From contig NC_135359.1 of assembly GCF_051622035.1 (NCBI RefSeq), positions 21,548,001 to 21,612,000 on the forward strand: a DNA stretch of 64,000 bases, in the 5' to 3' direction. This document shows positions 1,159 to 4,850 of this stretch, piece by piece. The DNA is from Arctopsyche grandis. Its lineage: Eukaryota > Arthropoda > Insecta > Trichoptera > Hydropsychidae. Under the pieces are notes generated by a model. It made no database searches, was not told where the DNA came from, and saw only the letters and a list, made by a program, of their open reading frames with translations. The position numbers and the translations under genes are program-made. The stretch's first letter is position 1, and the number at the start of each line of letters is the position of its first letter.

Positions 1159-2223
1159 TGTAGGCGGGGTACGATGTGTTGACCGTATCCCGGCCTAACG
1201 AAACACTGTTGTGTGGTTCAAAGATGGGGTCACCAATGTAGGCGGGGTAGCGATGTGTTGACAGCGCTGTTGGATGATCAGAAGGTTGCGTAGATCACGT
1301 CGGGGTAGTACCAATGTAGGCGGGTTACATGTGTGTTGACCGTATCCCGGCCTAACGAAACACTGTTGTGCTAGTTTTATAAAGTTTTATTGTTTGCCTA
1401 TGGTTGTACAAAGGTATGGTATTTGTGGGCAAAAGTATGTCGTTCAGCGGTCTCTGGATATGGTAGAGTGTCGCTGGCTCAGCATTCAGCTATGTACGGA
1501 AGGTCTCTGGATACGGCAGTGTGTTGCTGGCTCGTCCGGCTGGTTGATCTTCCAAGTCCGCGTAGTGTAGTGGTGGCTGGTCAGGAGCTGTATGTTGACT
1601 GGTCTGCTGCTGTGTGTCGACGCTTGCTGCTCTGGGTCGACTGGTCTGGTGCTGTGTGTCGACGCTTGCTGTTGTGGGTCGACTGACGTTGTTTGGGTTG
1701 TACCTCCTTTTATAGTGTTTTTGGAATGCTTGGTGGAAGTGGTTATTGACGCGTACGAAAGGAATTTTGTTTTCGTCGAGGCGTCGAATTTTCTGGAATG
1801 CTTGATGGAAGTGGTTATTGACGCGTACGAGAGGAATTTTGTTTTCGTCGAGGCGTCGAATTTTCTGGAATGCTTGATGGAAGTGGTCGTACGAGCATTT
1901 AGTTTATTGATACGTACGAAAGGAATTTTGTTTTCGTCGAGGCGTCGAATTTTCTGGAATGCTTGATGGAAGTGGTCGTACGAGCATTTAGTTTATTGAT
2001 GCGTACGAAAGGAATTTTGTTTTCGTCGAGGCGTCGAATTTTCTGGAATGCTTGATGGAAGTGGTTGTACGAGCATTTAGTTATTGATGCGTACAAGGGG
2101 AATTTGCTTTCGTCGAGGCGTAGTATTTTCTGGAATGCTTGATGCTGTTCCGCTCGATGTATTTTGTTGTTGCGGAATATTCTCGAAGGTTTCGATGACG
2201 ATGACGACGGCGAGATTCCTACA
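1159..2223 (+). repeat. 5' long terminal repeat
   Basis: 1065 bp, TGTAGG...CCTACA. Its first 60 bases recur in modified form inside the repeat near 1237 and 1315, so it looks built by internal duplication. A tandem array occupies 1723-2140. Confidence 0.85.
1723..2140 (+). repeat. 72/87/89-bp tandem array within the LTR
   Basis: Copies of a unit starting GGAATGCTT begin at 1723, 1795, 1867, 1956, 2045 and 2132 (spacings 72, 72, 89, 89, 87). The same array recurs in the right LTR at 4346-4763. The unit is GC-balanced with GTACGA and GTCGAGGCGTCGAATTTTCT blocks. Confidence 0.85.
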
Positions 2224-2241
2224 TGGCTCTCCGGTGAGTGT
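2224..2241 (+). other. Putative primer-binding site of the LTR element
   Basis: TGGCTCTCCGGTGAGTG begins immediately after the left LTR, as expected for a site complementary to a tRNA 3' end (TGG pairs with CCA). I could not assign the tRNA. Confidence 0.5.
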
Positions 2242-2499
2242 TAGCGATGTGTGTGATTTTGTGGGAATCTTGATGTGTTGGAGTCTATTGACTCGATGGC
2301 GTCGTTGTTTGTCCGGTTGTGCTGGAGAAAGTTGTCTCAACAGCGGGTCTTGTGTTGCATGCCGGTCCAAGTCTTGTTCTCTACCAGGTTGCTTATTTTG
2401 GGCGAGCTGCGTTGGCAGTGAAGGTTTGTAATGGCTTGGATGGTGCTGTTGTGCAGGCTGCTGTGTTCTGCGTGGAGTCATTCGCGTGACTGTTTTGCT

Positions 2500-2950
2500 G
2501 GTTGTGCTGGAGTTAGTTGTCTCGGCAGCGGGTCTTGCGTGAAGAACGTTGTTTGACGAAGTGCGTTGAGTGCTGGTCTTCGTTGGTTGTGCTGGAGTTA
2601 GTTGTCTCGACAGCGGATCTTGCGTGAAGAACGTTGGTTGACGAAGTGCGTTGAGTGCTGGTCTTCGTTGGTTGTGCTGGAGTTAGTTGTCTCGACAGCG
2701 GGTCTTGCGTGAAGAACGTTGGTTGACGAAGTGCGTTGAGTGCTGGTCTTCGTTGGTTGTGCTGGAGTTGGTTGTCTCGGCAGCGGGTCTTGCGTGAAGA
2801 ACGTTGGTTGACGAAGTGCGTTGAGTGCTGGTCTTCGTTGGTTGTGCTGGAGTTAGTTGTCTCGACAGCGGATCTTGCTTGAAGAACGTTGGTTGACGAA
2901 GTGCGTTGAGTGCTGGTCTTCGTTGGTTGTGCTGGAGTTAGTTGTCTCGA
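2500..2950 (+). repeat. 85-bp minisatellite (about 5 copies)
   Basis: Units starting GGTTGTGCTGGAG begin at 2500, 2585, 2670, 2755, 2840 and 2925, each 85 bp apart. They differ by a few substitutions and lie in the interior of the LTR element. Confidence 0.9.
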
Positions 2951-3369
2951 CAGCGGCTGTGTTGTGTTGGAGCTAGTTGGCTCAGTGGCGATTTGTTTCG
3001 CCGGTTGTGCTGGAGTGGGTTGACTCAACAGCGGGTTGTGTTGGTAGCTGGTCCATATGTACTTTCACACCATGTTACTGTTGCGGTCGTTACAATGGTA
3101 GTGAAGGTTTGTGTCGGTCTGGACGGTGCTGTTGTGCAGGCTGCGGCGTCCTGCATGGGCTCATCGAGGTGATGAATCATCGAAGGTGTGATGAGCGGTG
3201 CTGGCGGATCAACAGTAGTGGATCCATTTGGTTGTTGTCTCCGGGTTGCGTCTTGTTGTGGCGAAAGCTGCCGAGTTGTTTGACATGGTCACTAGTTGTG
3301 GGGACATGTAGCGGACTGCGTTTGAAGTCTGCGTTGAGGGTTGCGTTGTAGACTGCGTTGAAGGCTGCG

Positions 3370-3755
3370 GTTGCGTGAAGTCTGCGGTTGCTATGTAGTC
3401 TGCGGTTGCTATGTAGGCTGCGATGTGGGCTGCTATGTAGGCTGCGATGTGGGCTGCTATGTAGGCTGCGCTGTGGGCTGCGATGTTGACTGCGCTGTGG
3501 GCTGCTATGTAGGCTGCGATGTGGGCTGCTATGTAGGCTGCGATGTGGGCTGCTATGTAGGCTGCGATGTGGGCTGCTATGTAGGCTGCGATGTGGGCTG
3601 CTATGTAGGCTGCGATGTAGGCTGCTATGTAGGCTGCGCTGTGGGCTGCGATGTTGACTGCGCTGTTGACTGCTATGAAGGCTGCGATGTAGGCTGCTAT
3701 GTAGGCTGCGCTGTGGGCTGCGATGTTGACTGCGCTGTTGACTGCTATGAAGGCT
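3370..3755 (+). repeat. 12/24-bp minisatellite in LTR interior
   Basis: About 30 tandem 12-mers of the form GCTGCKATGTRG, often alternating in a 24-bp higher-order pattern. Because 12 is divisible by three, both strands stay open and give false low-complexity proteins (repeating AAYI/AAHI on one strand, GCDV/GCYV on the other). Confidence 0.9.
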
Positions 3756-3781
3756 GCGTAGTTCAAAGATGGGGTCACCAA

Positions 3782-4846
3782 TGTAGGCGGGGTACGATGT
3801 GTTGACCGTATCCCGGCCTAACGAAACACTGTTGTGTGGTTCAAAGATGGGGTCACCAATGTAGGCGGGGTAGCGATGTGTTGACAGCGCTGTTGGATGA
3901 TCAGAAGGTTGCGTAGATCACGTCGGGGTAGTACCAATGTAGGCGGGTTACATGTGTGTTGACCGTATCCCGGCCTAACGAAACACTGTTGTGCTAGTTT
4001 TATAAAGTTTTATTGTTTGCCTATGGTTGTACAAAGGTATGGTATTTGTGGGCAAAAGTATGTCGTTCAGCGGTCTCTGGATATGGTAGAGTGTCGCTGG
4101 CTCAGCATTCAGCTATGTACGGAAGGTCTCTGGATACGGCAGTGTGTTGCTGGCTCGTCCGGCTGGTTGATCTTCCAAGTCCGCGTAGTGTAGTGGTGGC
4201 TGGTCAGGAGCTGTATGTTGACTGGTCTGCTGCTGTGTGTCGACGCTTGCTGCTCTGGGTCGACTGGTCTGGTGCTGTGTGTCGACGCTTGCTGTTGTGG
4301 GTCGACTGACGTTGTTTGGGTTGTACCTCCTTTTATAGTGTTTTTGGAATGCTTGGTGGAAGTGGTTATTGACGCGTACGAAAGGAATTTTGTTTTCGTC
4401 GAGGCGTCGAATTTTCTGGAATGCTTGATGGAAGTGGTTATTGACGCGTACGAGAGGAATTTTGTTTTCGTCGAGGCGTCGAATTTTCTGGAATGCTTGA
4501 TGGAAGTGGTCGTACGAGCATTTAGTTTATTGATGCGTACGAAAGGAATTTTGTTTTCGTCGAGGCGTCGAATTTTCTGGAATGCTTGATGGAAGTGGTC
4601 GTACGAGCATTTAGTTTATTGATGCGTACGAAAGGAATTTTGTTTTCGTCGAGGCGTCGAATTTTCTGGAATGCTTGATGGAAGTGGTTGTACGAGCATT
4701 TAGTTATTGATGCGTACAAGGGGAATTTGCTTTCGTCGAGGCGTAGTATTTTCTGGAATGCTTGATGCTGTTCCGCTCGATGTATTTTGTTGTTGCGGAA
4801 TATTCTCGAAGGTTTCGATGACGATGACGACGGCGAGATTCCTACA
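3782..4846 (+). repeat. 3' long terminal repeat
   Basis: 1065 bp, offset 2623 bp from the left copy. One mismatch seen (G4535 against A1912). It is preceded by AAAGATGGGGTCACCAA, where a polypurine tract is expected. Confidence 0.85.
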
Positions 4847-4850
4847 AGAG

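Follow-up and report, generated by a model that had tools for sequence, protein, structure and literature searches.

Positions 1159 to 4846 of the window, a stretch of 64,000 nucleotides from Arctopsyche grandis (C5:21548001-21612000 in the genome searched, which comprises 475.7 Mb in 189 contigs), are occupied by what is likely a non-autonomous, tRNA-Trp-primed LTR retrotransposon of ~3.7 kb on the minus strand, in which the choice of primer site among stacked primer-binding sites (PBSs) probably sets the end of the LTR. The 5' LTR (minus strand, 3782-4846, TGTAGG...CCTACA) and the 3' LTR (minus strand, 1159-2223) are each 1065 bp in length and differ by a single mismatch in pairwise alignment, as a preliminary description of the locus had reported; the mismatch lies at position 1912. 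They enclose a coding-free interior of 1558 bp. The direct LTRs with TG...CA ends that characterize LTR retrotransposons are present in this element and its relatives, and a PBS, recognized by the printed tRNA-Trp complement discussed below, adjoins the 5' LTR. A target-site duplication (TSD), AGAG, flanks the element at 1155-1158 and 4847-4850. Excising the element together with one AGAG reconstructs an empty site with a continuous minus-strand reverse-transcriptase frame across the joint, and the piece adjoining the insertion matches RVT_1 in Pfam (E 1e-8); the interrupted frame is presumably of RTE type. The window copy has inserted itself into another retroelement.

The orientation of the element rests on the order of signals in the LTR. 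Read on the minus strand, the LTR presents the possible promoter box TATAAAAG (4330-4337; 1707-1714 in the 3' LTR), then, 323 nt on, the possible poly(A) signal AATAAA (4009-4014; 1386-1391 in the 3' LTR), each a consensus match only. Directly after the 5' LTR comes TTGGTGACCCC, a short PBS at the start of the interior (minus strand, 3771-3781) that is taken as the site used by the window copy. Other AATAAA and TATAAAA matches are also present in the minus-strand reading; the plus-strand reading has one TATAAAG and zero AATAAA. The plus-strand orientation was set aside, as the tRNA-Trp PBS and an AATAAA behind a TATA box come with the minus-strand reading, and the LTR at 3782-4846 is therefore assigned as the 5' LTR and that at 1159-2223 as the 3' LTR. 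As to the identity of the primer, the available text of one source prints TGGTGACCCCGACGTGAT as a tRNA-Trp complement (PMC4635179), and that of another prints an oligonucleotide for an engineered tRNA-Trp that continues as TTTGAACACGCAACCTTCTGATCT (PMC6379413). No tRNA-Trp gene of the host was found genome-wide with a vertebrate-type query or an anticodon-arm pattern; the host gene may differ from these queries or hold an intron, the PBS implying a standard tRNA-Trp 3' end.

Tandem repeats make up 2265 of the 3688 bp (61%, with U5 units included), and the earlier characterization of the element as almost entirely minisatellite was too strong, but the individual arrays are all as claimed. These are, on the minus strand, a 72/89-bp array in the U3 of the 5' LTR (4341-4767; 1718-2144 in the 3' LTR), and a 12/24-bp array (3316-3758) and an 85-bp array (2499-2956) in the interior; a 42-bp repeat is also found in the LTRs (1597-1685 and 4220-4308). 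The minisatellites of the element are unstable in length. Preceding the 3' LTR is a weak purine-tract candidate, CCGGAGAGCCA (minus strand, 2224-2234), whose six-base purine run is no better than chance, a run of equal length occurring in 484 of 2000 shuffled 30-mers.

The preliminary description had noted an interior without gag or pol, and this stands. Three open frames of the element returned no Pfam match above the cut-off and one sub-threshold match among them, and frame lengths are within the range of dinucleotide shuffles. In sense, the longest frame that opens with ATG measures 86 aa, a length reached in 290 of 400 shuffles, and the longest open frame measures 200 aa, reached in 109/400; the longest antisense ATG frame (59 aa) was matched in 294/400. 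Nearest to exceeding chance is an antisense open frame of 140, matched in 29/400.

A dispersed family and its possible helpers

In genome searches, 40 of 1367 candidates were scored for the LTR, giving 93 matches, and 40 of 205 were scored for the interior, giving 104. Pattern counts allowing up to 2 mismatches located 616 LTR 5' ends and 149 junctions of interior and 3' LTR genome-wide, with 0 in the reversed control in both cases, and by subtraction ~318 LTR ends are solo or truncated. Nineteen of 26 fetched loci are complete LTR pairs, with L010, L011, L017, L018, L027, L031, and L032 left out as incomplete. A 4-bp TSD is found in 17 of the 19 complete copies, the exceptions being L014 and L024, and interiors range from 1140 to 2313 bp, with 1-12 cores of the 85-bp unit per copy. 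Summed over the 19 pairs, the two LTRs of a copy differ at 6 of 17,207 aligned sites, a figure from a sample that leans young because loci were chosen by likeness to the window LTR. These data support a family of young, dispersed, coding-free LTR elements, and the earlier suggestion of a young mobile element is borne out by the dispersed copies, the TSDs, and the near-identical LTR pairs.

Some members of the family lie in unusual arrangements. Similar open frames that face opposite ways on both sides at L010 and L011 (C5, near 31.690 and 31.724 Mb) suggest an inverted duplication ~33 kb apart, with one family LTR on each side. The order of LTR and interior is repeated in tandem, with a spacing of ~2.2-2.8 kb, at C2:32044332-32049909, C12:761301-764969, and C8:21295611-21298802.

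Fifty-one exact sites of the full PBS (TTGGTGACCCCGACGTGAT) are found genome-wide. Slices taken at 20 full-PBS sites comprised 12 that are U5 of the family, 1 weak relative (L042), and 7 with no family match (L038, L039, L040, L041, L046, L051, and L052). Pieces of L038 and L052 carry a PF23055 domain, L046 an RNase H domain, and L051 a sub-threshold protease match. PF23055, a DUF, is read here as Gag from its place; it has 66 matches genome-wide, 24 of them in frames of 303-310 aa, and 5 of the 66 lie just downstream of full-PBS sites (C2:13422111, 30655041, 30719067, and 34497545; C11:1266822). These coding families at full-PBS sites may belong to the CsRn1 clade, and the likely helpers of the element are CsRn1-like Ty3/gypsy families that have coding capacity and share its PBS; they would supply Gag, reverse transcriptase, and integrase in trans.

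Non-autonomous elements usually originate by deletion from a coding element, and the window element could likewise have lost its coding part from a parent of the same LTR that still exists in the genome. In favor of this, two same-strand LTR ends lie 10 kb apart at C3:3715707-3725670. However, the 19 complete pairs have interiors of only 1140-2313 bp, and, among the matches listed, paired LTR ends on C1-C3 are ~1.8-3.6 kb apart, save for that C3 locus and for junctions with no listed 5' LTR end. A coding partner sharing the LTR, proposed earlier as something to look for, was not found in a non-exhaustive search of the genome. L042, which has 79% U5 similarity over 74 bp, was rejected as a coding partner, with no long open frame in the ~600 bp past its PBS. 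Descent from a coding element of the same LTR that survives in the genome is possible but somewhat doubtful.

The U5-PBS stack and the LTR boundary

The copies of the LTR's own start reported in the preliminary description were confirmed, and begin in the window at 1237, 1315, 3860, and 3938; what had been missed, along with the minus-strand reading, is that they form a stack of tRNA-Trp primer sites. In sense, the repeated start resolves into tandem units composed of the LTR end CCCGCCTACA, a PBS variant, in many units a stretch complementary to the 3' half of tRNA-Trp, and further U5 sequence. Four types of PBS can be distinguished: type F is the full PBS, allowing one substitution or an extra C; type Si is the short PBS at the start of the interior; type Sl is a short PBS inside the LTR; and type V reads TTGGTACTA..., with the pairing to the tRNA 3' end broken. 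The first U5 unit of the window element starts at 3925-3947 (minus strand; 1302-1324 in the 3' LTR) with an LTR-end copy (3938-3947) and a damaged, type V PBS (3925-3937), and is followed by CGCAACCTTCTGATC, which is complementary to a portion of the 3' half of tRNA-Trp (minus strand, 3899-3913; 1276-1290 in the 3' LTR). The second starts at 3849-3869 (minus strand; 1226-1246 in the 3' LTR) with an LTR-end copy (3860-3869) and a type Sl PBS (3849-3859).

Past the 18-nt PBS, 16 of 16 bases of the tail match the tRNA-Trp complement, a score reached by 0 of 2000 shuffles, and the same bases are printed in the engineered-tRNA report (PMC6379413). In a diverged copy, L035, the score is 40 over 42 tRNA bases, the match reaching into the anticodon; an Rfam search of L035 gave sub-threshold matches only. 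Modifications of tRNAs lie at position 58 and near position 37, and the tRNA likeness may end where it does through a reverse transcriptase that copied the primer past position 58 and was blocked near position 37.

Three copies have stacks of irregular structure. In L033 the 5' LTR ends after the first unit end, and a damaged PBS there runs on into a complete tRNA-like tail and then the interior (L033:1998-2035), and the 3' LTR has a longer stack than the 5' LTR. In L034 a 67-nt copy of host 3'-flank DNA lies within the 5' LTR stack (L034:5541-5607, minus strand, versus 2719-2785), a pattern that post-insertion repair or conversion would produce. At the left end of L017 (L017:1980-2560 and 4885; C6:12332500), the place of U3 is taken by part of the copy's own U5 end in inverted orientation, with a long PBS stack after it; AACA flanks both sides of L017, which therefore seems to be an integrated, aberrant product of reverse transcription.

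In LTR replication, the ends of the LTR are set by the primer site used, and the position at which the 3' LTR stops relative to the stack of the 5' half can be compared across copies. In 16 copies with no F, the stack is present in full in the 3' LTR, which ends at the point where the 5' half has the start of Si. The stacks are F Sl Si in L019, F Si in L045, and V Sl F F Si in L036. In L019 and L045 the 3' LTR ends before F, and in L036 it consists of V Sl and ends before the first F; in L047 it also stops before F, with the last bases as expected. The 3' LTR thus stops just upstream of the first F in 4 of 4 copies with F versus 0 of 16 without, although the associated Fisher p of 2e-4 overstates the evidence because the copies share ancestry. 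The stop in L047 was predicted in writing beforehand, which counts against an explanation at the DNA level; L045 was fetched as a test with no written expectation. The sequences of L036, L045, and L047 do not include 5' ends, so that among the four F copies a TSD is seen for L019 alone. The comparison left out L033 and L034, which have odd 5' LTRs and 3' LTRs that end V Sl like most, and the rearranged L017, in which a private variant indicates that the 3' LTR likewise ends ahead of an F, albeit not the first. L044, L054, and L055 carry a full PBS and stand outside the count, their 3' LTR ends lying beyond the fetched sequence. Six LTRs bordering non-element DNA (L035, L037, L043, L048, L049, and L053) contain a full PBS, so that a rule of F first is not absolute; either priming sometimes passed over the full PBS, or there was a further F downstream. 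The tracking of PBS type by the LTR end across copies leads to the reading that primer-site choice probably sets the LTR boundary, with decayed PBSs becoming LTR sequence.

The stack could instead be an ordinary minisatellite altered by unequal exchange or gene conversion, in which case differences in LTR boundary would have arisen after insertion and would be no record of primer choice. Two observations speak for this: the LTR pairs of L024 and L029 differ by whole units, of 72 bp and 42 bp respectively, and the copy of its own host flank in the L034 stack is explained by repair at the DNA level. Chance loss of units, however, would not single out the full PBS as the point upstream of which the 3' LTR ends, and we regard a purely minisatellite origin of the boundaries as unlikely.

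The preliminary description had also suggested that an element built of tandem repeats could give rise to satellite DNA in the genome. Array length in the repeat-rich interior does vary, as the 1-12 cores counted in the 19 copies attest. Against such a role, the genome holds 796 cores of the 85-bp unit for 149 junctions, or ~5.3 per junction, which is approximately what 149 interiors would hold given a mean of 6.6 per copy in the 19 copies at a looser threshold, and all 100 matches listed among the 796 (exact; 18 clusters) adjoin element junctions. Collapsed or unassembled arrays may escape the assembly-based count, and for the 85-bp unit the proposal is not supported and is judged very improbable. 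Finally, the LTR pair might be no mobile element but minisatellite DNA duplicated locally as a segment, an outcome that the preliminary description had named as refuting its own reading and one that the local pair by itself would support. This has next to no probability, being refuted by the 616 LTR ends and 149 junctions dispersed in the genome, by TSDs at other copies, and by the empty site.

Known systems and a proposed primer-site relay

LTR elements without coding capacity, LTR elements that contain arrays, and priming by tRNA-Trp are all known already, and published accounts provide points of comparison for each. PbTRIM, a TRIM of the harvester ant, resembles the window element in having two LTRs, no coding sequence, a PBS at the interior start, a 4-bp TSD, many solo LTRs, and no known coding partner of the same sequence, but is small, has a tRNA-Leu PBS, and is described in the available text with no mention of tandem repeats, whereas the window element is 3.7 kb and has a tRNA-Trp PBS, arrays, and stacked PBSs (PMC3532108). 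Like a TRIM, the window element has no coding capacity as judged by frame shuffles and Pfam, but at 3688 bp, with family interiors that alone measure 1140-2313 bp, it exceeds the defined TRIM size of less than 1000 bp (PMC10886601). Helenus elements, as described in the same text, are also coding-free and carry tRNA-related sequence in the LTR, with 4-bp TSDs in animal members and a tRNA-Trp PBS in some hymenopteran members; however, the promoter in Helenus LTRs is itself tRNA-like and has boxes A and B, whereas the tRNA-related sequence of the window element is limited to a PBS and the complement of a tRNA 3' half (PMC10886601). Membership in Helenus was rejected, as neither ARAGORN nor Rfam detected a tRNA, with its boxes A and B, in the element. 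The combination of a tRNA-Trp PBS and a 4-bp TSD, found in the window element's family, is shared with CsRn1-like Ty3/gypsy elements, but these encode Gag and Pol (PMC2582038), and neither a Gag with a CHCC motif nor a Pol of the clade is among the window element's detected content.

Plant elements such as Retand are LTR retrotransposons that likewise contain tandem arrays, specific to the family and variable in length, and array-bearing elements of this sort are a known source of plant satellites, but they are coding, with arrays between pol and the 3' LTR, unlike the coding-free window element, for whose 85-bp unit no satellite was seen (PMC11963269, which cites Macas 2009 and Vondrak 2020). 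The nearest precedent found for several primer sites in one retroelement genome is HIV-1 with multiple PBSs, although these arose in culture as altered PBSs reverted, whereas those of the window element are natural, inherited, and partly inside the LTR (PMC1084362). Among the papers listed in a literature search covering titles and the openings of abstracts, with few subscription journals, there was no account of stacked or multiple PBSs in LTR elements, or of an LTR end that tracks PBS type.

How might such a stack be acquired and maintained? In the mechanism judged most likely, the minus-strand transcript would be packaged and copied by the enzymes of a CsRn1-like Ty3/gypsy element, with tRNA-Trp priming at the best-pairing intact PBS, and integration would generate the 4-bp TSD. 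Each stacked PBS would be a possible primer site, the full-length PBS usually being preferred over the short interior one, as the comparison of copies suggests. Because minus-strand synthesis starts at the PBS used, sequence upstream of that PBS lands in both LTRs. As an upstream PBS decays, priming would move downstream and the old PBS unit would become LTR sequence, with the LTR lengthening at the 3' side as a result; the first addition of units could come by slipped strand transfer between PBS copies or by conversion at the DNA level (compare L034). Stated generally, the length of the LTR would evolve by a primer-site relay, in which tandem U5-PBS units, each with or descended from a tRNA-Trp 3'-half complement that extends to the anticodon loop and was perhaps copied from the primer past the usual stop, compete for the tRNA, and dead upstream sites join the LTR. 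This is a proposal that we hold to be evenly poised between right and wrong.

In young natural copies of this family, several candidate primer sites stand in an order that is known, with the LTR end probably recording the one used, and the rules of primer choice and the gain in LTR length thereby become testable by comparison of sequences. Where an LTR repeats its own start, the repeats can preserve a legible trace of reverse transcription rather than mere minisatellite noise.
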